From: Branchiostoma lanceolatum
Lineage: Eukaryota > Chordata > Leptocardii > Amphioxiformes > Branchiostomatidae
Direction: 5' to 3'
Length of the DNA stretch: 64,000 bases
Assembly (NCBI RefSeq): GCF_035083965.1
Contig: NC_089723.1
Coordinates: 35,204,193-35,268,192 of the forward strand
The notes below the pieces were generated by a model that was given only the letters and a program-made list of their open reading frames with translations, did not search any database and was not told the DNA's origin. The position numbers and the translations under genes were made by a program. Positions 5,190-64,000 of this stretch are shown here, one piece after another. Position 1 is the stretch's first letter. Every line of letters starts with the position of its first letter.

Positions 5190-5660
5190 TGTTCGTGGTG
5201 TTCAGCACCAAGGACAGGTATGTTTTCTCTGTGTGGATGGTGTTCAGCACCAGGGACAGGTATGTTTAACTATGTGTTTATGGTGTTCAGTAACAAGGAC
5301 AGGTAAGTCTAACTGTGTGTTGATGGTGTTCAGCACCAAGGACAGGTATGTTTAACGGACTGTGTGTTGATGGTGTTCAGCACCAAGGACAGGTATGTTA
5401 AACTATGTGTTTATGGTGTTAAGCCCCAAGGACATGTACGTTTTACTGTGTGTTTACGGTGTTCAGCACCAAGGACAGGTATGTTTAACGGACTGTGTGT
5501 TGATGGTGTTCAGCACCAAGGACAGGTATGTCTAACTGTGTGTTTATGGTGTTCAGCCCCAAGGACAGGTACGTTTAACTGTGTGTATGGTGTTCAGCAC
5601 CAAGGACAGGTATGTTTACCTGTGTGTGGATGGTATTCAGCATCAGGGACAGGTCAAACA
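5190..5660 (+). repeat. 43-bp minisatellite array 1
   Basis: About eleven imperfect units are built on gtgttcagcaccaaggacag followed by gtatgtttaactgtgtgt. The unit lacks stop codons in one frame, which produces a spurious open frame at 5364-5690. The same unit forms a second array at 8270-8690. Confidence 0.9.
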
Positions 5661-6356
5661 CAACAAGTCTGTTTTATATATCATCCCTAAGGTGTCAGAT
5701 CGAAAACATTTTTTCTGAGGCCTAGCACCGGTTCCTATGGTCACATCTGTGCATTTGTTATTTGTGCCCTCTGGTCGGAGATTAAACTTACGACGTTGTA
5801 AAACTGTAACGACCACATTTTACATACTTTTACTGTGCCGTCTAGCAGTGTCGAGATATGTATCCGACAGTAAAGTCTGTGCTTCTAGCGTGTAAGTTTT
5901 GCGTGTAGTACTGAAACTTCATTTATGTTCGCATAGATTTCATTTCGCGGTAGGAGTGGAAATGAGTTTTTCGCGATGCTTAAGTTCGCGGTAGAAGCAA
6001 CACAGTAGCAAAGAAACTCAATGACCCACCATGCTTATTGAAAAGAGTAGGGGTCCTTCCAGGTGTGAGTGGATCAAATAAATCTGTCAGCATATGGAGC
6101 TTGTACTCTTCACTTCAGTATAAACCCGGTGTGTTACGCCATGAGGCGGGCTACCGGATATGCAATACAAACAAATGGCGGTGTCATGATTTCGAAAAAA
6201 ATAACCCACAGCAAATGTTCCGAGATGTACAGCATTAGACTTTTGAGCGAACGTTGACCTTAGTCCATATAAATCCGCAGTAAAGCTCCATACTCTCTCT
6301 TGGGAAATTCTGAAGCATAAACTACTTACAGGTAATCAGCTCACAGACTATATACT

Positions 6357-6500: not shown

Positions 6501-8269
6501 CTATATACTTTGGTCATGAGATATAGAGCAAGTCTATAATTCTCTGTAAGACCTAGGAAAAACATGTTGTGTTTCTCGTTACCCGGCCGACCCTAGGAAA
6601 ATCCTGCCGGCCCTTGCCGTTTTTTTGTCTACCGCTAGTAAGGTTTTAACCTGATATCTGAGTGATGAAAATTCAAAACAGAATCCAAGAAGTCTGGCAT
6701 AATTTTTTGCAGACTTCCTGTATTTCATACTCTGTTAACAGATTCACGTAGATTGATGTAGGAATGTGTAATGAAGTTAACCTCCTTTGTGTCGTAAATA
6801 TTGTACTTCTTTTTTCAGTTTATGATATTCTGTATGTATACAACACGATGTTGAAAATACCAGAGTCCTGATGCATTCCAATTTTACAAAGTTAAACTTT
6901 ATTTGTTGGATCACTTCGACCGAAATCTAAGAATTAAGAAAGAAGGAAGGAGAGAATCCCTACCTACCGACCCGATTTTCTTTCAGTAAAGAAACAGGAA
7001 ACACAATTTTTTCTTAGGCCAAACAGTCAATATTCATGTTTCTGCTTTCATGCACCTGAAAATGGTTGAATGTCTCGGTGAAAGAACATCGGCAAGTGAG
7101 GGTTGATTCCGTTTAGAAGCACTTCAAAACGTGCAATTCCTTGATTGAACAGGCTCTGCAACAAAAAGAGTAACCTTCCGTAAACTTACAAGAAAAAAAA
7201 TCAGTCACGATGCTCCTTCAAAGAGAAAAGCGTTGGTAACGACGGATGACTATTTTGCCTCAGAGCATCAGATCGCTGGGGGAAAAGAACTGGGGGAAGA
7301 AAAACAAGCACCCTCCGACTGCGCCGGTGACGCATGTTTGGCCGGAGGTGATCTCTGTATAGTTCGGACCACTGCCGGTAACCTTCCTGCACAGAACCAC
7401 CGCCTGCTGGCAGCGATAACTGAACCTTCAGCGCTCAGTTACACAAAGAAATACATCTCTAGGTTTGTCACTATCTGAAGTAAGTTGGGGTTCTGACCTC
7501 CGTTGTACAGGAGAGAGAGCTGTTCATCCGTCTGATATAGCATTTAAACATAAACTAGTCAGAGCCACCTACAACAGATTCAACACTGCAGTCTTGATCT
7601 CCCATGTATCTGGGCCACATATTGTGGGTATAGCTCCTGCGTTACTTCAAGACAACACTAAGTTCTTGCTTAAACATAACATCTTATTTCATTGTATATC
7701 AATATCCGAATCATGCTTCACCACTTTATGTCCTGCTTTGTATATAAGTAGATATGATCGATTTTGTAATGTATTGTACTGTTATTTTTAGTGTGTGTGT
7801 GAGGGCAACTTGTAAGAGTGGGAATGCACTTGTAATACCCTCCCTTTCACTCGAATAAACCTTTTTTTTACGATGATAGGGATGAAATGGTTCTAATCGA
7901 ATAAATATACTTAGCGAGGGTACACCATATAGTCTGAAATATCTTACATAAGGCCTATATCACATTGAAGCCTTCATAAAAACGATCCATCTATGATCAC
8001 AAAAGCCTCTTGAACACCACATAAAGAGATGAAAAATGTTCCATCCTACAGTTGTTCCTGTGAATCTAGAGATATCGAGCACAAGGAATCGGAGGTCACA
8101 AATCTGGAGGACAAATGGCGTCATTTGCAGTGCAACTTTTCCCCAAATTCTCCGCAATTCTCCGCAATTCTCCACTATGTCGTGAAAGTTCTGACATGTT
8201 TTAGTTTCATACGTTGGCATGTTTTTAGTCCATACTACGGGAATTAATATACTTGGATGGCTGTGACAG

Positions 8270-8690
8270 GTATAATTTTATGTATGGATTGTGTTCAGTA
8301 TCTTTACTTGTGTGGATGGCTGTTCGGTACTGGGGGCGGGCATGTTTACCAGTATATGAATGGTGTTCAGTACCAAGGACAGGTATGTTTATCTTTGCGT
8401 GGATGGTGTTCAGCACCAAGGACAGGTTTATCTTTGCGTGGATGGTGTTCAGCACCAAGGACAGGTTTGTTTTTCTTTGTGTGGATAGTGTTCAGCACCA
8501 AGGACGGGTATGTTTATCTTTTTGTGGATGGTGTTCAGCACCAGGTCGAATTGTGTATGGATGGTGTTCAGCACCAGGGACAGGTGTATTCACATGTGCA
8601 TGGATGGTGTTCAGCACTAAGGACAGGTGTGATTGCCTGTGTGTGGATGGTGTTCAGCATCAGGGACAGGCCTGTTAACCTGTGTGTGGA
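8270..8690 (+). repeat. 43-bp minisatellite array 2
   Basis: About ten units carry tggatggtgttcagcaccaa followed by ggacaggt, the same core as the array at 5190-5660. Overlapping open frames (8253-8678 and 8257-8700) are repeat translations with repeated GVQHQGQV-like motifs. They have no start or splice context and are not annotated as genes. Confidence 0.9.
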
Positions 8691-9661
8691 GCACACATAA
8701 TTTGCATGTAGTCATTAAATGAAGTGGCTACTTTTTCACTGAAGTTGTAGCTGTTTCCTGACATTTCACCCCCCCTTCTCTGAAATCTTCAAAACTCTTC
8801 AAAAACTTTTCTTACAGCAATTTTCTTCAGCAGAAAAACCTAAATTAAGCGATATAACGTTACAACTAGTAGTAGTACACATGTTGGAAATGTATGAGCA
8901 GGAAATGTATTCAGGTACAGAATGACCTAGAGGCTTAAGCTACAAATTATAGCATAAATATTAGAGCCTCTTAAGTAAGAGAGCCGATGGCTAAGCCTAG
9001 TCTTCTTCCTGTGTTGTACTGTGGGAGCTAGTTATTGACGTCATTATGGGTGCATGTCCCCAGGATAGGAAAAACTGGTACTGTGAACGCATTTACTTTT
9101 GAGATGGTTTTATTTTGCAGCAGGACAGAGAAGGAGGTGTTTAAAATTTGGAGGTTGAAACATTTTTGTAGTACAGTAGTAATGCATTGGAAACGCATAT
9201 ACTTGGTGTCATAAATTCATGGCGGAGAGGTCACAGCAAAAACAGCAATAATAAAATCACTGTGAACATTCAAAATTTACAATACCACTTTCAGCAATGT
9301 TCAGTTTCCTGTGGAAGTACATTGAGTGTTATGACAACATTCAGTCTCACGTTACTGTTCAGAAGTCATTCTTTTTTTTTTCTTCACCCATTTGACCGGT
9401 GGCAGCAAACATTACATTAACATATAGCCAGTATACATGATGACAGCTAGTGCTGATCTCGTGTAGGTGAAATATGATGTATCACAAATACATGTTCCCG
9501 CACAGCTCCAATTTTACTTGCACTCATCTAACACATTATGCTGGCAGTATTTTGAGCCCTAGTAGAATGTTGAAGCTATCCAAGGTTTTCATTTTTCCCT
9601 CGGGCAATAAAATTACAGCGACAATTTAAAGATTCACAGTACATTATTGAGGCTCGGGATC

Positions 9662-25068: not shown

Positions 25069-28000
25069 ATGGAAGACGACGCTCCTGTGATCTACGGTCT
25101 AGAGTTCCAGGTTTGATCTAGATCTCTTACAGTCCAGATACGCTGTTAGGTACCGTTGCAGTTGCTAGAAGTTAACCCCAGGGTCATTTTAGATGCCGAG
25201 ATACGTAGAAACGTGGTACTTTGTAAATTGGTATGAACAGAACTGAAGAAAGTTTGGAGCAGACGACAAAATTATTTGCATGTCTCTCAAGTCTCATCAT
25301 ATATAATCTTTGCCTAAGGCTAATGGCAGGACGATCGTGCCAGCAGTGCAAAAATTTACACTGCTGGCAGGACGATCCTGCCAGCAGTACAAAAAATTGC
25401 ACTGCATATATAGGACGATCCTGACAGCAGTGCAAAAATTTGCACTGCATACCGGACGATCCTGCCAGCAGTACAAAAATTTGCACTGCATACAGGATCG
25501 TCCTGTATGCAGTGAAAATTTTTGTACTGCTGGCAGGATCGTCCGGTATGCAGTGCAAATTTTTGCACTGCTGTCAGGATCGTCCTTTTTTCAATGCATT
25601 TTCGCAACCAATCAGAAACTAGCATATGTAATTGCTACGGTAACAGCAGATATTATTTGTTTCAAGATGTCGGCCATCATCACAGCGTATCTAAGGACCT
25701 ACCAGGTGATATCAGCGCGATCCGATCGGATCCGGCGAACGCATGAGCTGGAAACCGGGCAATTTTAATTTCATAATTTCAGCTAGGCCCAACCTATTCA
25801 TGGGGCATATTTCGGATCGTGATTATAGTCATGTTTTATCTCAAATATCATCGATGCTAGGTGCCAAATTTCTGACATGCTCCTGGGTACTTGTACTCCC
25901 ATCCGAGCCCTCTATTAATTGAGCTGAACTACTAGTTACGTACAACGTACAAGTAACAGCCGTTTCGTTATCACAACTGACTCTTTTTTATGCTGAAATT
26001 TTTGAATCCGTCGAATCGACAGCTTGAGAAACGCACTTTTAATAGAACTTATTAGAAGGAATCCACCCCCCCGATACTGGATCCTAATGTCAATTGTTCA
26101 ATAAATCCCATGACTTCATCAGACAGGTGTGGTTGTGCTCTATTATTACGAGTCATGTCTAATGTTTACTGCTCGCCTCTTGGTACTCATTCAGTAACAG
26201 GGCGGCTGGGAAATCCGCCCAGTTGGAAAACTTATCTCCAGCCTTCATGGCTGCCGCCATGTTCCTCGCTGAGTCCTTTCGCGCGGGCAATCTTTTTGCG
26301 AGCTCTGATTGGCTGAAAATTTTTCCTGTCAGCAGTAGAAATTTTTGCACTGCATACAGGAAAAATCCTGTATGCAGTAGAAATTTTTGCACTGCATACA
26401 GGATGATCCTGTATGCAGTAGAAATTTTGCACTGCATACAGGATCATCCTGTATGCAGTAGAAATTTTTGCACTGCATACAGGATGATCCTGACAGCAGT
26501 GCAGATTTTTCTACTGCTGACAGGATCATCCTGTATGCAGTGCAAAAATTTCTACTGCATACAGGATCATCCTGACAGTAGCCACAACCATAATTTTTTG
26601 CTTTCGGCAAATATTTTACCCATTGCAGTTTGTACTACTGAAGTAAGACAAAAACACAGATCATATTGTGGTACTGCTTGAAGTGGATTCACCCCAAAAT
26701 AGAAGGAAGTGGATATTACAGGACGATCCTATCAGCAGTAGAAAAAAATCGCACTGCTGACAGGATCATCCTGTCAGCAGTAGAAACAGTTGCACTGCTG
26801 ACAGGATCATCCTGTCAGCAGTGGAAAAAGTTGCACTGCTGACAGGATCATCCTGTCAGCAGTAGAAACAGTTGCACTGCTGACAGGATGATCCTGTCAG
26901 CAGTAGAAAAAGTTGCACCGCTGACAGGATCATCCTGTCAGCAATCGAAAAAGTTGCACTGCTGACAGGATCATCCTGTCAGCAGTAAAAAAATGCTGTC
27001 AGGATCATCCTGTCAGCAGTAGAAACAGTTGCACTGCTGACAGGATCATCCTGTCAGCAGTAGAAAATTTGCACTGTTGACAGGATCGTCTTGTCAAAAG
27101 CCTCAGGCTTACTGAAACAGAACAAAAACCTTCTATCTTAGAACTGCTTGAAAGGTTATTCATGGTACAAATATAATCTACAAAATGATAATACGCAATG
27201 TTATTCAATTCAAGGATGATAATTTATTATCGTTTTCATCATGTTCCAGGCCCGTGCCCTGACACCTCAGGTAGCAGAGACAGACGCTATCCGCTTCCTG
27301 GTCGGCACTCAGTCCCTCAAGTTTGAAAATCAGGTAGGACAGATCTAGATGGCAATATGAATGTCCTGTCGAATGGTATTTTAAAGCAGGACAATAGAAC
27401 TGTTTTTGCCTGCTTTGAATGAATTTTATACCTATTTTATAAGGTACCTATGACAAACAGTGTTCCATAAGTTTTTACACAAACAAGTTAAAAATAGGAT
27501 GGACTGGCCATCTTTGCATTGAGAATATCTAGCTATTGTAATCCTTAAACATTACATGTCTCAGTGTTTACTGTATGCCCCTACCCCCATGTTGTCTCTA
27601 AGTGTATTCTGTATCTGTATCTATATAGCTGGTAGCTTAGTATTGTAGCACCATGTAGTATTAATAAGATATTCTATGTGTCAGTGTTTTCTTCATGTTT
27701 TTTTTTTTCAGATCCACCAGATTGACTTTGATGATGAGAATAACATCCTGAACAAGAATGTGTTCCTGCACCAGCCGGGAGAAGTCTGGCACGTCAGCGC
27801 CAGCCCTGCGGACAAGGCCGTGCTCACGACGGTGTACAATAAGAGTCAGTAATCATATAACATACGCTTTCACCTCAATCTTACATCATCTGTACCATTT
27901 ATGTGGGCACTGTGTTGCAATAGTTATTGATAAATGGCAAGGAAATGCTGATTATTAACTATGAAGATTTTCAGGAATAAGAGTTAATTGAGACAGCTCG

Positions 28001-33094: not shown

Positions 33095-33920
33095 TTACTT
33101 CTTGCTTGGACTATTGTTCACTCCCTGAGTAGCATTTTCTGGCGGCACCACCGGTTCCTTTCTGACCCTGGGGTCAACGTACGCTGCCCGTGACGTTGTC
33201 TGGAAGGAGTTGTACTCGTTCTTAAGCAGCGGCGGGTCCAGCTCGGGTTGACTGCCGGGAAAGCCGATGGGCTCCCGTTCGGCGAGGTGTTTTAAGGACT
33301 CCGGTACTCCCGCGGGCTTGGTGCTCAGTGTACTGCCGTAGGTGGTGTCGAAGTAGTGTTCATATTGAGAGGGGAGCCGCTTCGGGACTCTCTGATGCTC
33401 GACGTCGAAGTGATGCTCGTTCCAGTTGCCCACCAGCGTTTTGCTCCGGTAGCCCTCCTCCTGTGTGGTGGACCTGCAAATTGTCGCAAATTCCGCTTCT
33501 GGTTATTTTACATTTTAGTTGAGCCAATGTTTTGATTTCCTATTATCATGATGTGACATTATCTTTGTCTTTATATTCTATCTAATCGTAAATTCTGTTT
33601 TGATGAATGGTTATATTTTCTAGTCACTCTTTATTCCTGTATCATTTGTAATTTGTATTGTTGTGATTCATTGATATTGCAATGTAATTCTATTATTAGA
33701 GGTTGAACCCCCAGGAAATCTTTGAATAGTGCCACCAGGTGAAATGTATTCCTGGTTAGATCAAATTTCAACCTCCTTGGTTAGATAAATGAACTGAAAC
33801 TGACCTCCAGCCGAACTGGGTGAACTTGAGCTCGTCGTGCGTGTGTGTCCAGACCTCGCCCTGGCCCGACGCTCGCACCATGGAGCAGAACGGGGCGTCG
33901 CGTTCAGACATCAGATTCAT
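33095..33920 (-). CDS. CFAP68: CFAP68 (C11orf1 family), ciliary microtubule inner protein
   Basis: Coding exons are 33920-33805 and 33473-33095 on the minus strand. They join in phase 2 (tggag|gtcagt...ttgcag|gtcc) to give 164 aa. Landmarks shared with vertebrate C11orf1 are GQGEVWT, FTQFGWRSTTQEEGYRSKTL, VGNWNEHHFD, LPSQYEHYFDTTYGS and GFPGSQPELDPP. The family's usual length is about 150 aa. CFAP68 is a structural protein inside axonemal doublet microtubules and has no catalytic motif. The first ATG after the acceptor at 33933 was taken as the start. A noncoding first exon probably runs from about 34560 to 34432 (donor cag|gtaag). The sites at 34591-34615 fit a ciliary promoter. Confidence 0.92.
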
Positions 33921-53362: not shown

Positions 53363-56300
53363 TCAGTTCTGTTGCAGCCGGGCTTTTCTAGCCCTCCTCT
53401 TGGCCTCAGCGGCTGCTATCCTCTCAGCTTCAAAAGTTGTGACGCTGTTGTAGCTCAGCTGACGCCAGGTGCTGCGATCGTTGCAGAGAGCTTCAAAGTT
53501 TGTGGGGTCAATGTGACCCTTCTTTAAGTAGTGTTTAAGGGTGTCTTTATATCTCTTTCTCTGTCCACCCCTAGGCCGTGTCCCTTGATCCAGTTGTCCA
53601 AACAGGGTCTGTTTGGGGAGCCGGTTTTCTGGCATCCGGACACAGTGACCAGTCCATCGTAGTTGGCTACGCATAATGAGTGCCTCTATACTACAGGAGC
53701 CAGCTTCAGCTAGCACACTAGTGTTGGTACGGTAGTCTGTCCAAGAGATGTTCAGAATACGACGTAGTGAGCGTTGGTGAAACTGTTCGAGAGTCTTGAG
53801 ATGTCGTCGATAGGTGACCCAAGCCTCGCATCCATAAAGAAGTGTTGGGAGCACTACGGCTTTATAAACTTGAAGCTTTGTTGTTGTCTTCAGGTTTTTG
53901 TTGTCGAAAACCCTTCCCCTTAAGTTTCCAAAGGCTGCGCAAGCGCTTCCTTGCCTGTGTGAAATGTCATCGTCAATGTTTCCTCTGTTATTAAGAGTGC
54001 TGCCAAGGTAGCAGAAGTGTTTGACGCATTCAAGGCGTACTCCATCCATGTAGAAACTTACTGCTGGTAGTTGTTGCCCAGGAGCTGGTTGGATCATGAC
54101 TTTAGTCTTTGACTTGTTTGTAGTCAGGCCAAGAAGTTTGTATGCAGAGTTGAACAAGTCAAGAGTGTCTTGTAGGTCTTGAGCCTGGTGGGCTGCGAGT
54201 TTACAATCATCAGCATACTGGAGGTCATTAACAGCAACCTTCTGGACTTTAGTGACAGCATTGAGACGTCTTAGGTTGAAAATACTGCCGTCATAACGGT
54301 ATCTGATTGTCACTCCAGGTGGAAGGTGGTCTTTGATAAGTAGCAGAACAGCAAACAGGTAAATGTCAAAGATTGTGGGTGCTAATATACACCCTTGTTT
54401 TACACCGGTCTTAATCGTAAATGGTTCAGTTTCTGAGCCATTGTAGAGTACCTTGGCAGTCATTCCATCGTGTAGCAGTCGAAGTATTGTTATGAATTTA
54501 TCCGGGCAACCAAACCGCTTCAGTATCTTCCAAAGTGCCTCACGATTCAGGGAATCGAAAGCCTTAGTCAGATCAATAAAGGCCATGAAGAGGGGCTGTC
54601 GTTGTTCTGTACATTTCTCTTGTATTTGTCTGGCAGTGAAAATCATGTCTACAGTACCTCTGGATGGCCTAAAACCACACTGAGTTTCAGGCAGTATTCC
54701 CTCGCTCAGGGGAAGGAGTCGATTCAGGAGTACTCTTGCCAAGATTTTACCAGCCGTTGACAGAAGGGCGATTCCCCGGTAATTCCCACAGTCTGATCTA
54801 TCACCTTTTTTGTAGATAATAGTTATTACTGCGTTCTTAAGGTCGTCTGGAAGAGTTTCATCCTCCCAGATTCGCAGAAGCAGACTGTGGACTCGAGCTG
54901 TGAGGTCGGGTCCGCCGAACTTGTAAACCTCAGCAGGGATACTGTCCGGCCCGCTTGCTTTGTTGTTTCTCAATTGCTGGACCGCCTTTTCAACTTCTTG
55001 GGGAAGGGGGGGTTCAGCAAGATCATTTTTTGGCGGATACATCGGTAGCTGTGAAATCGTTGTCTCACTGACAGTGGATTCTCGGTTGAGGAGTTTCTTA
55101 AAGTGTTCCTTCCACCTGGCTTGGATGCTGGCTTCATCTTTATACAGAATACTACCATCTTCAGATTTTAGGGGTGCCAAACCAGACTTGGTTGGACCAT
55201 AAAGCGCTTCGTGGCTTGGAAAAAGTTATGCATGTCATGTCAGTCTGCCAAGGCTTGAAGTTCTTGTGCTTTTGCTTCCCACCATGTGTTCTTCATATCA
55301 CGTATACGGGTTTGTACTTCAGCCTTAAGAAGTGAAAAGCGCTTGTGCTTTTCAGCATTGTGAAAGTCGTCTTGCCAGCATACAAATGCTTGGCGTTTCT
55401 TGTTAATCAGGTCTTGAATCTCACTATCGTGCTCATCAAACCAGTCTTCATTCACACGTTTGTGGAGACCAATGGTGTTCTTACAGGTTTGGAGCAGAAC
55501 GTTTTTAAGTGTATCCCATTGCTCTGCCACACTTCCGGAATGGGTAGGTCCAAGCTGAGTTAGGCGCTTGCGCAGATCAGTCTGAAACAGTTCCCTTTCG
55601 GACAGAGTTTGTAACTTATTAGTGTTGAAAGTTCGTCTTGTTACTTTGGGACCTTTTCGCACTTTCTTCTTCAATGAAATGTTCATTGTAGAACGAACTA
55701 GGCGATGATCAGTCCAGCATTCGTCAGCCCCCCGCATTGTGCGGGTGATCCTTACATCACGTTGATCTTTCGATCTTACAATAACATAATCCAAAAGATG
55801 CCAGTGCTTGGATCTAGGATGACACCAAGTAGTTTTGTATTTGTTTTTGAGTCTAAAGAGTGTGTTGGTGATCACTAGTTTGTATCGTGTGCAGAGTGAT
55901 AGGAGAAGTAGGCCATTAGAGTTGGCGTTTCCTACCCCGTTCTTGCCGATTGTGCCATTCCAGTGTGATCTTGTCAGTTGCTGGGATCGACTGAAGTATG
56001 TTTTCCAGATCCTCATAGAATTTCTCTTTGATGTTGTCTTCTGCGGTCAGAGTTGGGGCATAGCAGCTGATCACTGTTGCACTTTGTCGATTGTTGAGTT
56101 TGAGACGTAGAGTCATGAGTCTTTCATTCACTCCAATTGGAATTTCCTCTAGATCTTGCAGGAGAGAATTCCTTATAGCAAAGCCAACACCATGAATCCG
56201 TCTGTCCTCCTCTGGGAGACCTTTCCAGAAGAAAGTATATCCCCCAGCATCTTCTTGAAGTTGCCCTTCGTCTGCGAGTCGAGTTTCGCTAAGGGCAGCG

Positions 56301-56488
56301 ATGTCTATGTCAAATCGGGTAAGCTCCCTTGCAACGAAAGCAGTGCGACGTTCTGGACGATCGCTGTTCTCTCTGTCCAGTAGTGTCCTCACGTTCCATG
56401 TTGCAAAGTAGAGACGTCGTGAGTCTTTCTGTGTAGGACTCTTCTTACTACAGGGTGTGGTTCGACGCTGAGGAACTTCCGACACCAT
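53363..56488 (-). pseudogene. Broken non-LTR retrotransposon (endonuclease + reverse transcriptase)
   Basis: Reading on the minus strand, the frame at 56488-55916 is an EEP endonuclease N terminus with FATWNVRTLLD, DIAALSETRL, GVGFAIRNSLL and ISCYAPT. The frame at 56016-55240 continues it with NGLLLLSLCTRYKLVITNTL, KHWHLLDYVIVRSKDQRDV and ADECWTDHRLV. The frame at 55180-53363 (605 aa) is the reverse transcriptase: AFDSLNREALWKIL, TGVKQGCILAPTIFDIYLF and the catalytic LQYADDCKL, then the C-terminal VLPTLLYGCEAW block. The expected GDFNA block of the endonuclease is missing at the first frame junction. A TGA at 55240 and a frame change near 55200 separate endonuclease from reverse transcriptase. 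The clade is probably RTE- or Proto2-like; this is inferred from motif style only. Confidence 0.87.
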
Positions 56489-56594
56489 GTAGACAAGACT
56501 TATATCTGTATGTGGTACGTGAAAGTAGTCAAATACTTAAGTACCGCTACAGTACCGTAGGAAGCCGATAGGGGGCCCAAAATCTAATCGTTCC

Positions 56595-56827
56595 ACCCTC
56601 TCACTGGACCCGCGACGCGTTGGCGACCTCTCCGCGTCCTAGATTGAATTTGACTTAGCCTTAACTTTACAATGGGAATACCATGCAAAACGTACAAGTA
56701 TGACTAAAAAAAATCACACAAAGCGTAAAAAGATTCGTTTTTTATCAATGAAATTCGTTTAGCGCGGTGTCAAATCGCTCGGTCGCAGCGAGGTCGCCAA
56801 TGCGTCGCGGGTCCAGTGAGAGGGGGA
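56595..56827. mobile_element. MITE, family 'ctcactggacccgcg' copy 2
   Basis: Ends accctctcactggacccgcg and cgcgggtccagtgagagggg face each other, with gcgttggcgacctct mirrored by gaggtcgccaatgcgtc. It inserted about 80 bases from the 5' end of the broken LINE. Confidence 0.88.
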
Positions 56828-57862
56828 CCTCGGATGTGTGATGCTCTAGATCGTTAAAAATTACCTTTATGATTGATAATCACTTCTCGCCCTGTGTGTT
56901 AACTCAGTTGCTAGTGAGGTAACCTGTGAAAACAACGTATCACCTACGCTACCCATCTCCTAGGAGATTTATAGAGATAAACGTTTGTTCCTAAGGACCT
57001 AAGTTTCCACAATAGTCAGGGCTAGGAAAGCAATGTTATCTTTCTGTACTCTACAAGCAGAGGAGGGGTTCCGGCTGGTTTTTGACGTGTTTTTAGGTTT
57101 AAGATTTCAGAATTGGACTAAGATGCAGGATGTAAAGGTATGATGTAAAATATATAAAAGCACACAAACGTAAAAAAAAAAATTACGTTCTTTATCTATG
57201 AATTTCGTTGAGCAATCCTGTGACATTGTCAGCAGTTGCAGCCTCTAATGGAAAAGCGGTGAAACACCGAATTAGCTAAAGCTAAAGCGTCACATATCCC
57301 CTAGGAGATTAAGCGAGACTAACGATTCCCAGAGCAAAGATCCTTTGTTCCCAAGGATCTCTGGATCTAGTAGAGTTTTGTATCCGAGAGAACTTTAAAC
57401 CCGTATCCTAAACCGTACAAAGCGTTAATACGTTTGGCCATTACTCTTCGCTGTGTACCTTTAAGTCTCGTTCCCAAGCTAGCGTTACCATAGTTACAAA
57501 CGGGGCCGTCCTATAAGTGTGGTTCGTCGTTAGACAAGGTTGGGACCCCAAACATTTTGAACAGCGAAAATATATAATAACGACAACAAAATCTCGCGGG
57601 GGAGGAGTTCTGTCACAAGGTACAACGTTATAAATAGATCTTTAAACAAACACAATGTCAAAGTACCCTATATCGTTAGATATCGATTTGCTACACAAAC
57701 GGCACAATGAAACGTCCCCGAGTGCAAAGGGGTTTGTGGAACAATAGACGCGCGTACGTGAGGGCCAGGTGCTTAGGTTAAAGAGCTTACTTACAAGTGC
57801 TTGCTCATGACACGGGCACAGAGCGAAGCTAGTCACAACAACTGTTGTGGTAGAAATTAGGC

Positions 57863-60800
57863 ATGGGGCTTGTGTGCAGCACTGGGGGCGAGCTGACCAT
57901 CCCGGGGTCCGTGGTGGGGTGTCCCATATGTGACAATAGGCCGTCCGAACAATCGGCTTGGGCGGCGCAGTTTCAGGTGACAGAGGAGAGACTGCTTCAC
58001 CTTGTCAGGTGGAGCGAACAGGTAAGAAAGGAGTGATGAAACCCGCTAGAGCCGGTATACACATGTTTACTGCATGGAAATGTACGAATACATAATTCCT
58101 TCTACATGTATGTATACGTGAAGAAACAAAAACTCATTATATGTATATATATATATGTAAGACATGGGAAATGGTTGGAAGGAAAAGCGGCCGAGAACTG
58201 CCACAGGCTACATGAATAATTTAGCGAACCTAATCATGACGTCTGCGTGGAGAGGCAGTCCTTTCATCTCTCCTTCTCAACCCTTTGTGTTGTGAGGATG
58301 TGTTCCCTTGTGTATATAGAAAGTATTAGTACCTAGTTAGTGGTTGAATGCTTTTGTTCGTAAATAACAATTATGACTCAATTATAAAGGACGATTAGCA
58401 ATGCACTTTTAATCGAACTCCTTGTATCATTTTAAACAGAGCGACAAGAATTGTAACCGAGCGGTGTCTTGCAGCTTCGTAGACTAATGCCTGTACTAGA
58501 TTACTACTTCTTTGTTAACTGTTGTTTGCTCAAGTTCTACTAGTGAGTAATGGTTGCTCGCCGCGAGTGCCAAAGTTCTAGTACTGTACCCGGCTGTGGG
58601 GTTCTCGATGTCTACGCGTAGCTAACCAACATACCTGCGTTGTGACCTGTGCCCTAGCTCGATCGATTTTGAGCCTTGTTGAAATAAAACGTTCCCAGGC
58701 AACTCCACAACACTATTTTCTGGGGCAAGTATCATCACGAGCCAAGTGTTTCATAATGTGTCAGTCTTTAAGACAAAGTTGAAGCTCATACAAAGAATCG
58801 AAGGGAGGGTGGTAAGATTTCGAAATCAGCCCTTTGGTCGCACGAAGACAATGCATAATTCAGTGGTCGAAGTTTCCTTTATTTACAATGTAATAACCTG
58901 TAAAGGTATCCGTTTGGGCGATATCATTGCTTGCTTGGTTAATGGATATCATACACTACTATTTCATCAAATGTCTTCTAATAACGGTCTACTGGTGAAT
59001 ACAGGTGGGTCCTTTATTCACTAGGGCTAACAACAGCACTTTGTATAGAAAACCGTAGTAAGTGCGGCCAATGCGTCCTTTTGAGTGAAAAAACTACGAT
59101 TAAGGCTGATATGTGCATGTTTACTGATAGCTACATCGTCATGATTATTTATTTATGTGTGTGTGTATATGTCATCGCATTGCATTGCATTGGAAAAACC
59201 ACCTAATGCCTGGCGGCATTTATATTCTAAAGCTATGGACTATCATTATCACTATCCTAATCCATCTTACCTGCGGACTCTCTTTCGTTGTCTCTGACAA
59301 AGGATACCCACCGGTAATAATAGATGCCAGGCTACTTATCCAGGGCTTAGCATCAAGGATATAGAGCGTTTATAAGCGATTTAACCTACCCAACACATCT
59401 ATCTTTATGCTGAAAATGTTTAACTGTTCTTGTTTTGCTATTCCAGGCTCCCTTCTTCAGCACATTTGAAGGGTTAGTGGACTACCTGACGGGGCAGACC
59501 ACGAGCGATGTGGAGCGGTTCTGGGTTCTGTTCCACTGGGTTCAGCTGGAGTGTCGACGTCAGCAAACGCACAAGCCTCAGTCCGAGGACTCCCCACGGG
59601 GGTTCCTCAGGGCGGTGCAGAGCGGGACGAGGTCACACGCAGAGCTGTACAAGAAACTATGCAGGCAAGGATTCTTTTCATTCTTGATGAGGAATGTAAG
59701 ATGGGTGACCAAATTCACTCAACGTGGCGTGCGTAGTCCAGTGGTTAGCGGACCTGGAGCTTGGGAGTTCGTATCCCGGCTGTTGCCGCTCACCCGTCAT
59801 GCGCGTAACCCCCCCCCCCTCTCACTGGACCCGCGGCATGCTGGCGGCGTCGCTGTGGCAGATCGAATGGACAAAGCACTCAATGAATTTCATCGACAAA
59901 AACGCTTTGTGTGTTTTGTTGTCTTTTTGGTCGTTTTGCATGATATTGCCATTATAAAGTCAAGAGTAACACAAATCCAGTTTAGGACGCAGCGAGGCCG
60001 TCAACGTGCCGCGGGTCCAGTGAGAGGGGGGCTTTACTGGAAAGGGTCGCAGTCCTTAGGATGGGGCTTAAGCCACTGTTCATTGTACTTCTCGAAAAGA
60101 GCTAGGGAAACTCCCGTCTGTATTCTCTGTCACGACATCAGCAGAGATGAACCGGATCGAGATCACTTTCACTCCCCGCTAAAAACTGTTTTCTACTAGA
60201 CAACAGTACACATGAAGATTTTCGAGTATAAATCTTCATATACAACAACGACAACAACAACAACAACAATGATCTTTATTGACACAACAAAGGTACAGCA
60301 ACTTTTATAAGGTCTTTTACAACTATACATAGAAATATAGCATGCAACTCGTAGTCGCAACTTAAGAGAAACATTGACAAAACATTTCGACAATATTCAT
60401 AAAATGCTAGTGCTACTACTTGGTATGTCATTAATCTGTTCCACATTTCCGTCATACTCTAGGACTGCAGGCTTGAAGTGTAAAACTGTGACTGGTCTTT
60501 GTAAGTCTACTGAAGGACCATCTGCGACTGAGGGTGCACCCAAGTCATCGTGGAACGAGGTAACCCTAGACGGAAGACGCTCATTGGTGGACTGCAGACT
60601 CGAACTAGACTTCGAGCAGATTCGAATTCCGCCATTTTACTTTTTGACCCATCCGACGCATTTTGCCGCCGCTCACTTTCCTGACAACAAGTCACACCAG
60701 CTGCTAGAGGTCAACTTCACGTTGGAACAGTTTCAAGGTCACGTCGCTTGTTTCCCAGCCTTTTTTGACCTTGACAAGGATGCGATAGAGCACCATTCGG

Positions 60801-63643
60801 GCGATGTAAGAACAGTTGAAGGAGTAGCTCTTCTAAAGTTCGGAACTACTAAACCGATCAAATGCTGCCTCCAAACCCTTAATAGAATCGCAGTTCAAAG
60901 TAACATCGACCTCAGCAATCATGTAAAACAGCTCAGGACTTCTCTAGATAACCAGGCGGACATCATGGTCAGACCGCCATTTCCAGGGCGGTTCAGTTTA
61001 AAGGTCTGGGTACAGCATGAAAGCAGTGACACGTTCTTACCCGTCTGTACGTATACTATCGTATGCGGGAAGGTGGCCGAAGACTGTTCGCCCTTTAAAA
61101 ACGACACGGAGTCAACAAAGCAAAGGAAGAGGAAAAACCGCACCTCGACAAGTTCCCAAGAACCGACCAAGCCAAGCAGGCCATCTTCTATCACCTGGTC
61201 CGACGAGCCAATGACGTCGCCGTACAGACGTCGCTCTGTAAGAAAAAGACAACAGGATGACGAACATGTCGAACAGGCTTCGGAAGGTCCTCGCAATGAA
61301 ATCGTGCCGTCTGCACAGGTTCAGAGTAATGCTGACCACCCGAAAACATACAAGGCGTGGACGCGGGACTGTGTCCTGCACAGACCGAAAGCGAGGACAC
61401 TCTCCAAGGGCGCTTTGGTAAAATTCAAACTTGCAGTACCGCACGTTAGCCGCCTGGCGGTGCTACTGCCTTTCTCTAGCTCTGAGGATGGTTACAAAAA
61501 AGTTCCGCTGAAGTCGAGAGACGGAGGGACCACGTGGAAGGGAAAGGCGAGAGTTCCTGATCAGTACGACGCTGAAAGACGATATGTTTTTGTAGTGGGG
61601 ACGCCCAGTGGTGCAACTGAGGGACAATACCTACTGGAGTACGATATAGGTGGGTATAGTCTCATGACACGTTGTTAGGGATTTCATTCGTCATTTAGGA
61701 TGGTGACGTAAAGCCGAGGGCCCGTATATGCACGAACGTCAGGCGTCAAACCTCTGCATGTGAACGAACCTAACACCCTTATCGAAAAAAGTGGAGTGAC
61801 TCGGAAGCCGCATTATCTTACTAGCTAACGAAGAAGCGTCATGCTTCGTCCTCAGTCTGAGTTCGACTGCTTTACCTTTGCCTTACCTAGTCTCATGCAT
61901 GGTGACAACAGTTTCGACCGGTGCATTTTGTAGATCCAAAGAAAACGAAAGTCGTAATCAATAATGTTATGACTGTCGATACAAGTGTTTTATAGGCCGA
62001 GGAGGTTTAATGCCTCCTTGGTTGCCTTATAAACAAACTGCGGTATCATCTGCCATGTTGTTCTGCCGAGTAGAAATTGCTTAAATTTAACTTTTTGGAC
62101 ATTTGACATATTGAGCTCATGTGTGGGATGAGATCATGATACCGCAAATTTGCCTATATCTATACATTATCTTGAAAGCAGATTTTGATTGGTGCCCTGT
62201 GCCCTTTACAGGAGACAGGAACCCACCGGAGGGAGAGTCTATGGAGGATCACGACGTCGATCTGAGTTAGTACGCCTTTCATTACTGGGTTTTTGCTTCG
62301 GTCCCATTTCCAATCCGGGGCCCGGTCGGGCTGTTTTCGAAAACGAAAAAAAAAAAAAATGCATATCAAGCAAATACACAATATATGGTAAGGAGATTTT
62401 TTTCTACGTTTTGTGTATTTTGTTGTCTTTTATATCCTATTTTTCGTTCCCACAAGCTGCCCGACCGGGCCCCGGATTGGGAATGGGACCGTAACATTTA
62501 TCAGTGGCAGCTTTTTGTGAAAATATCGTCCCCATCGTAGCATCTACAAGCTGATATCAGGTTTATTGCAAAGACTTATTGCGAAAACGCGACAATGAAA
62601 CCACAGCGAATGTTTCCGTATTTACAGTATATATCAAGTAACGCCATTTTGTCACTGTACTAAAACAACAGTAGCTAATAGTATTGAACTATTAGCATCA
62701 AACCTTGTCTTGAATTAATCTTCTTTTGAAGACTACGTCAAGACATTCTAAATTGTCTTAACCTCATTAACATATTTATTCAGAGTTTTGGTATAAATCT
62801 GGTTTTCCAGTACTATCGTTAGTCAATGACTGTTTCAAAATTTTATCCAGTTGCTTGAGTCACTATTTTTGTCGTTTTAAGTAACGCCACTCTCCCGCCC
62901 CAAGGTCTTCGAAGCTTCACATACTGCAAGTACAGCACTCGACATGTAACGTTACGTCGAAAACACATCACTTAACATTAAGTCACCCCGACCGAGGCCA
63001 CTCTTATAGAAATTAACGAACGTCATATGTAATTATAACTCCCGATCGCGACGACCTTGCTTATGACCTGCTCGGTCATGGTCGTGACGTCGAACAATTT
63101 CTGCCACTTCACCTGGTAATGTTTTGAAATTATGATATAGTTTAATACTTAAGTCGTGGCGTCGAATGTCCGAGTAGGCTAGGCAAGCAGAGGTCGAGGG
63201 GTCTTGGGTTCAATCCCTGGTATTCTTGACTAGACGGTGTGCCTTAGGGAAAGGCGCCTTACATGACTTTCCTCATTCCACCAAGGTGTAAAAATGGGTA
63301 CATGATTTCGGTTGGAGAGGTACAAGGCGGTGGAAGGAGAGGGATGCCTTCCAATAACGTGCCCTAGACACAGTGGATAACAATCCACTGCCCATACGGA
63401 CTCAAAAAAGGCCACGGGACTTCCTTTTCCTTATACCTTAACAGTCAACTTATCTAGTCATAAGAACCATACTTAATACTAAAAAAAATATTTTTTTTCA
63501 CCCCAGAGCTACATGACCTGAGAGATTCCCGCCTCAAACCCCTTCCGGACGGTTTCACCTACCACATCATGATCAGCTATTCCTGGGCGCAACAGGACGT
63601 CATTATCAAGGTCAAGGAACACCTCAACAAGGTCGGATACAGG
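57863..63643 (+). CDS. KY pseudo-peptidase / TIR-domain protein, 5' five exons (continues past window)
   Basis: Exons are 57863-58021, 59447-59664, 60463-61649, 62212-62265 and 63507-63643; all phases match and give 585 codons so far. An in-frame TAG precedes the ATG. The N terminus MGLVCS fits N-myristoylation plus palmitoylation. Residues 54-290 are a KY/transglutaminase-like domain (FEGLVDYLTG, AELYKKLCRTAGLKC, SSWNEVTLDGRRSLVDC, FYFLTHPTHFAAAHFPD). The catalytic Cys is replaced near residues 111-114 and the His by Ser155, while Asp169 remains. A Lys/Arg/Ser-rich linker (~330-410) follows. Residues ~420-520 match the KY Ig-like domain (VKFKLAVPH, QYLLEYDI). Residues 558-585 begin a TIR domain (YHIMISYSWAQQDVIIKVKE). 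Intron 2 has a GC donor (cag|gcaagg). The role is unknown; membrane-associated innate immune signalling is an inference. Confidence 0.85.
59724..59800 (+). repeat. tRNA-like SINE head (KY-TIR intron 2)
   Basis: gtagtccagtggttagcgg resembles an A box and gggagttcgtatcccg a B box, at normal tRNA spacing. It sits directly before a MITE and has no acceptor stem, so it is a SINE fragment. Confidence 0.55.
59811..60031. mobile_element. MITE, family 'ctcactggacccgcg' copy 3 (KY-TIR intron 2)
   Basis: Left end cccctctcactggacccgcg and right end gccgcgggtccagtgagagg are near-identical inverted repeats. The core gctttgtgtgttttgttgtc equals that of copy 1. Confidence 0.88.
60241..60270 (+). repeat. (CAA)n microsatellite
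   Basis: About nine imperfect CAA/CGA units lie in KY-TIR intron 2, about 190 bases before the exon 3 acceptor. Confidence 0.8.
61690..61860 (+). repeat. Interspersed repeat shared with 28015-28270
   Basis: Blocks tcatttaggatggtgacgta, 'gcgtcaaacctctgcatgtg' and 'aagcgtcatgcttcgtc' are in the same order as at 28015. It starts about 40 bases into KY-TIR intron 3. Confidence 0.55.
62290..62502. mobile_element. MITE, family 'ctagggtcacattt' copy 4 (KY-TIR intron 4)
   Basis: cggtcccatttccaatccgg plus ggcccggtcgggc faces gcccgaccgggccccggatt plus gggaatgggacc. It starts about 25 bases after the small exon 62212-62265. Confidence 0.8.
63150..63420 (+). repeat. tRNA-derived SINE, most complete copy (KY-TIR intron 4)
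   Basis: The head has tggcgtcgaatgtccgagta (A box region) and a clean B box gggttcaatccc. It is followed by tagggaaaggcgccttacat, 'gtaaaaatgggtacatgatt', 'ggcggtggaaggagagg' and 'ccctagacacagtggata'. It is the reference copy for those at 285, 12455 and 30550. It ends about 90 bases before the TIR exon. Confidence 0.8.
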
Positions 63644-63829: not shown

Positions 63830-64000
63830 CCTTTCCCAACATCTGCTTGGTGATTAATTATAGGTAGAAAACGGAGTCTTTCCTTCAGCAGTAAAAACGG
63901 GTACCTGACTTTGGTTGGGTGGGGGTGGAGGTAAAAGGCGGTGGAAACGAGGGTTAGGCTCATCCTTCCAATACCGTGCCCTAGACATATAGTGGGTAAC
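63830..64000 (+). repeat. tRNA-derived SINE body, cut by window end
   Basis: gtaaaaacgggtacctgact, ggcggtggaaacgaggg, 'ccttccaataccgtgcccta' and 'gacatatagtgggtaac' match the body at 63270-63380. The tRNA head is absent, so the copy is 5'-truncated. Confidence 0.7.

Follow-up and report, generated by a model that had tools for sequence, protein, structure and literature searches.

An amphioxus gene model that probably joins a catalytically inactive KY-type core and Ig-like domains to the start of a TIR domain

Vertebrate muscle kyphoscoliosis peptidase (KY) has a transglutaminase-like core followed by a KY Ig-like domain. It is described as having no demonstrated enzyme activity and as retaining the putative catalytic residues, and a role in protein binding has been suggested (PMC6078408). 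Amphioxus, for its part, is known for unusual TIR proteins: 20 of its 28 TIR domain combinations are reported as amphioxus-specific, the TIR being joined to partners unseen in vertebrates (PMC2575513), and TIR_2 is given as over-represented among dispensable lancelet genes (PMC12373286). According to a 2020 survey, SARM1 is the only known metazoan TIR that cleaves NAD+ (PMC7075850). A 2026 preprint describes several TIR clades as common across eukaryotes, non-model animals included, and calls them uncharacterised (PMC13142454).

We analysed a stretch of 64,000 nucleotides from Branchiostoma lanceolatum (the window), and all positions below refer to it. Its forward strand holds, at 57863–63643, a gene model with the same order of core and Ig-like domain as vertebrate KY. 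The encoded protein differs from vertebrate KY, as far as the latter can be compared by description, in being without the catalytic Cys and His, and also in that a TIR domain is probably attached. In our main reading the model is a single animal gene, whose product starts as a KY pseudo-transglutaminase with an acylatable N terminus, continues with a KY Ig-like domain, a disordered linker of basic character and a further Ig-like domain, and finishes in a C-terminal TIR. It would act as a cytoplasmic sensor or adaptor; we put the probability of this whole reading at about 0.5. The individual parts are known, while the combination of KY, Ig and TIR looks new. No description of a KY and TIR fusion was found among the papers listed in the literature searches, subscription papers and supplements lying outside its reach, and this agrees with the view of an earlier note on this DNA that no function has been described for the two in one chain. 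Yet amphioxus often joins TIR domains to unusual partners, so TIR shuffling is already known as a kind, and it is the KY partner that looks new. The main text of PMC2575513 does not contain the words transglut, kyphoscol or peptidase; its list of partners sits in Additional data file 4.

The gene model itself is coherent. Rejoined, its five exons give 585 codons with zero stops and compatible phases, as had been proposed, and their donors score 8, 7, 7, 5 and 8 out of 9 against a simple consensus. Exon 1 (57863–58021, codons 1–53) starts at the first in-frame ATG, which has G at both –3 and +4 and is preceded by an in-frame TAG at 57851–57853, and it ends at the donor CAG/GTAAGA. Exon 2 (59447–59664) encodes the first half of the transglutaminase-like core and ends at a non-canonical GC donor, CAG/GCAAGG. 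The join to exon 3 (60463–61649) is supported nevertheless, because the peptide spanning the junction, LYKKLCRTAGLKC, aligns ungapped with prokaryotic KY proteins. Exon 3 carries the remainder of the core, the KY Ig-like domain, a basic linker and a second beta-sandwich. Exon 4 (62212–62265) is a 54-nt acidic linker with an in-frame ATG at 62241 and a weak donor; since it is flanked by phases 1-1, its inclusion is optional for the reading frame. Exon 5 (63507–63643) follows a polypyrimidine acceptor, would encode the first strand and first helix of a TIR and ends at the donor AGG/GTAAGT.

Assignment of the upstream part to the KY family rests on matches above the Pfam curated cut-offs. Residues 63–164 match Transglut_core (E 9.3e-8, 32.8 bits versus a cut-off of 23), and residues 213–338 (60722–61099) match the KY Ig-like family PF23265 (E 2.3e-19, 70.3 bits versus 27), so that the tandem proposed before is borne out. 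For comparison, a prokaryotic genome collection was scanned with a DNA pattern encoding HFP[DE]xxxWQLL, which returned at least 118 stretches (loci L002–L119). At least 109 motif-bearing open frames were recovered; at least 79 of them match the amphioxus protein with E-values below 1e-4, of which 73 had sufficient length for alignment. A profile built from these 73 homologues alone matches the spliced protein at 2.6e-26 (a search against one target). The alignment set has 80 members, namely 79 prokaryotic frames and the exon 3 studied here; a Transglut_core match is present in 73 of them and an Ig-like_KY match in 45. As a control, PF23265 is matched in all five genomes tested behind the KY loci and in none of 14 well-known control genomes. 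The aligned KY-type proteins with intact triads (73 of 73 among the matches listed) come from Bacteroidota, Cyanobacteria, Methanothrix and others, and a solved protein, 9crn_A, matches the prokaryotic KY profile at 1.4e-23.

The active site, in contrast to that of these prokaryotic relatives, is lost. The catalytic Cys, His and Asp columns are kept in all 73 aligned homologues among the matches listed. In the alignment the amphioxus protein has Thr114 (59627–59629, exon 2) in place of the nucleophilic Cys and Ser154 (60545–60547, exon 3) in place of His; Asp169 (60590–60592, exon 3) is retained, and the Cys-His-Asp triad of an active enzyme is thus absent. The triad columns lie outside the search pattern, therefore their invariance is independent of it, which does not hold for HFP and WQL. 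Since catalytic Cys and His are replaced within a domain that Pfam and profile matches place in the KY family, the core is a genuine KY core and very probably catalytically dead. It had been called degenerate and protease-like from the letters, a description which the alignment upholds for two of the three catalytic residues.

Losses at the core go further than the triad. Arg91, Leu172 and His204 replace Tyr, Trp and Trp that are invariant in the 73 aligned relatives (among the matches listed), although the Trp column at 204 belonged to the search pattern and is invariant by construction. Such losses might be taken as a sign of relaxed constraint in a decaying pseudogene. This seems to us very improbable: 585 codons are free of stops, the conserved residues G137, W156, N157 and D169 are retained (as are H197–P199, which the pattern required), and exons 4 and 5 carry the codon signal considered below.

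Downstream of the KY Ig-like domain, the structure model of exon 3 (mean pLDDT 75.8) contains two beta-sandwiches separated by a linker. The linker (61142–61327, residues 227–288 of the exon-3 model) has very low model confidence and is read as disordered; three basic clusters, KQRKRK (protein residue 345), RRR (381) and RKR (386), lie just before or inside it. The second sandwich (61331–61649) is a well-predicted Ig-like domain in this model, its last strand ending approximately at the exon-3 donor. The best solved fold match of exon 3 is FAP246 of the Chlamydomonas ciliary C1 central pair (7n6g chain 6E; also 7sqc), with 18% identity over aligned residues and a TM-score by query length of 0.36–0.38, values that cover the end of the core, the Ig-like domain and the second sandwich only. 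With this ciliary match and at least 79 prokaryotic open frames below 1e-4, the statement in the earlier note that KY proteins are mainly muscle and cytoskeletal proteins proves too narrow.

The TIR part is seen only at its beginning. The piece at 63566–63643 (residues 560–585) matches positions 1–26 of the 122 of TIR_2, and the domain is cut by the window end. The match has an E-value of 0.024 for the exon-5 piece (46 aa), 0.046 for exons 4 and 5 together (64 aa) and 0.0086 for a trimmed core (31 aa); scores of 14.6–17 bits stay below the curated cut-off of 28, and when all 585 residues are scanned with Pfam, no TIR family appears, even at E 10. Thus a TIR opening in exon 5, as claimed previously, is weakly borne out: the first 26 positions are matched, but below the cut-off and not in the whole-protein scan. 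A second TIR profile was built from 37 of 40 prokaryotic TIR stretches. Among the 1719 six-frame stretches of at least 25 residues in the window, the exon-5 frame takes first rank with it, at an E-value of 0.46. Open frames surrounding 20 prokaryotic TIR hits were compared pairwise, none of them reaching an E-value better than 0.38.

One could therefore ask if exon 5 has nothing to do with TIR, being either part of some other domain or an open frame that arose by chance. Besides being sub-threshold, the match spans just 26 residues, the prokaryote-derived profile reaches only E 0.46 in the window and its exon-5 score is equalled or exceeded by 7 of 20000 shuffles; for the trimmed 31-residue core there is also a TRAPP match (E 0.11). 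However, the TIR_2 match starts exactly at position 1 of the model, the frame holds the first of 1719 ranks, none of five shuffled controls matched any Pfam family, and the piece is flanked by a polypyrimidine acceptor and an 8/9 donor. We consider a non-TIR exon 5 improbable, and judging from the letters exon 5 is probably the start of a TIR domain.

It is more difficult to decide whether the KY and TIR parts belong to the same gene. Splicing of the KY exons to the TIR exon appears likely from the sequence, the exon phases being compatible both with and without exon 4. In codon usage, exons 4 and 5 resemble exons 1–3: none of 1702 and none of 460 stop-free intronic windows of equal length, respectively, score as high, these windows being overlapping ones that double as background. 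The G+C content of the two exons is not distinctive, since it is reached by 7.9% of intronic windows in each case. The alternative is a pair of neighbours, that is, a stand-alone KY protein ending in GGYSLMTRC at 61678 and a TIR gene that starts somewhere within 61679–63506. Indeed, the KY domains are complete upstream of the exon-3 donor and unspliced read-through (61650–61678) stops after nine further codons (stop at 61676–61678), although the tail is poorly modelled, with pLDDT under 50 at residues 399–404. Separate genes would also accord with the Pfam families of the 80 KY members, no TIR being found within the 25 of 26 families listed.

Where such a TIR gene could begin was examined through its possible coding first exons. 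Twenty-six run from an ATG to a phase-1 donor, and two of them, with ATGs at 62136 and 62241, end in frame at the donor of exon 4 itself, so the TIR gene could begin there. The exon 4 donor (5/9) is beaten by seven of the 26 alternative donors, each scoring 6. Against a separate gene, 25 of the 26 are listed at no more than 43 residues and with donors of at most 6/9, coding first exons only being considered. Nor does AATAAA or ATTAAA occur between the two parts (61676–63506; 2.09 expected at window density) or up to 64000 (2.65 expected). The argument from missing polyadenylation signals is weak, because the Poisson chance of zero is ~0.12 and ~0.07 for the two intervals and these two hexamers alone were scored. 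Taken together, two neighbouring genes seem rather unlikely to us, and one gene carrying a TIR is the arrangement that we would expect.

For a single gene of this kind, a mode of action can be suggested. The dead KY core and the Ig-like domains might bind a partner, a reading of the KY part that fits because vertebrate KY is likewise without demonstrated activity and suggested for protein binding. The N terminus, together with the basic linker, might anchor the protein at a membrane. The N-myristoylation motif has Gly2 and a small residue at position 6 (MGxxxS). Exon 1 begins with MGLVCST (Gly2, Cys5, Ser6), which fits this motif, so the acylatable N terminus suggested before holds as a motif match. 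Clustering of the protein would then gather the TIR domains, and a signal might arise by scaffolding or by NAD+ cleavage.

Which of the two outputs applies depends on the TIR class. NAD+ cleavage by TIR domains involves a catalytic Glu (PMC7075850). The place of this residue, between strands C and D, falls beyond the window end here. In the same fused gene the TIR might serve as a scaffold only, with no cleavage of NAD+, the protein being then a Toll-pathway adaptor like TIRAP with N-terminal membrane targeting. The myristoylation-like N terminus would suit such an adaptor; the catalytic Glu lies outside the visible sequence, and this residue is described as rare in MyD88 and TIRAP (PMC7075850). 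On the other hand, the sole TIR model listed is TIR_2 and not PF01582, though 26 residues cannot settle the class. We regard the scaffold-only adaptor as a tentative but substantial alternative to the sensor or adaptor of the main reading. Group 18 TIRs are reported in the same survey as the sole eukaryotic group with diverse architectures, lancelets included (PMC7075850), and the amphioxus piece that can be set beside them is only 26 residues long. A more specific version of the fused gene, an 'integrated decoy', would have the dead KY pseudo-protease mimic a host cytoskeletal or protease target while held at the membrane, so that microbe contact triggers NAD+ cleavage by the TIR or nucleation of a signal; we think it improbable.

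Should transcripts confirm the main reading, an enzyme family of muscle, cilia and prokaryotes would gain a part in innate immunity, serving there as a catalytically dead module for recognition, and the protein would become a candidate immune sensor. It would also become testable whether binding of a cytoskeletal, KY-type kind triggers a TIR, and whether animal TIRs other than SARM1 cleave NAD+.

Several other elements are found in and around the gene model. A remnant of a non-LTR retrotransposon with broken frames lies upstream on the opposite strand (53363–56536; reverse transcriptase 6.1e-35, endonuclease 2.3e-7). An inverted-repeat element of ~220 bp is present in two copies, at 56596–56824 and 59814–60031, the second of them in intron 2, while a different inverted-repeat element (62294–62496, arms of 57 nt with 84% complementarity) occupies intron 4. 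The stretches 63155–63450 and 63870–64000 appear similar by eye, and the first contains a GGTTCAATCCC box like that of a tRNA-derived SINE; the repeat finder reported neither stretch and no tRNA was called. Further away, open frames of short repeated peptides, noticed by eye at 5313–5687, 8229–8697 and 25187–26678, are probably minisatellites, and an open frame on the reverse strand (33098–33502) matches the ciliary protein CFAP68 (Pfam, 7.5e-22).
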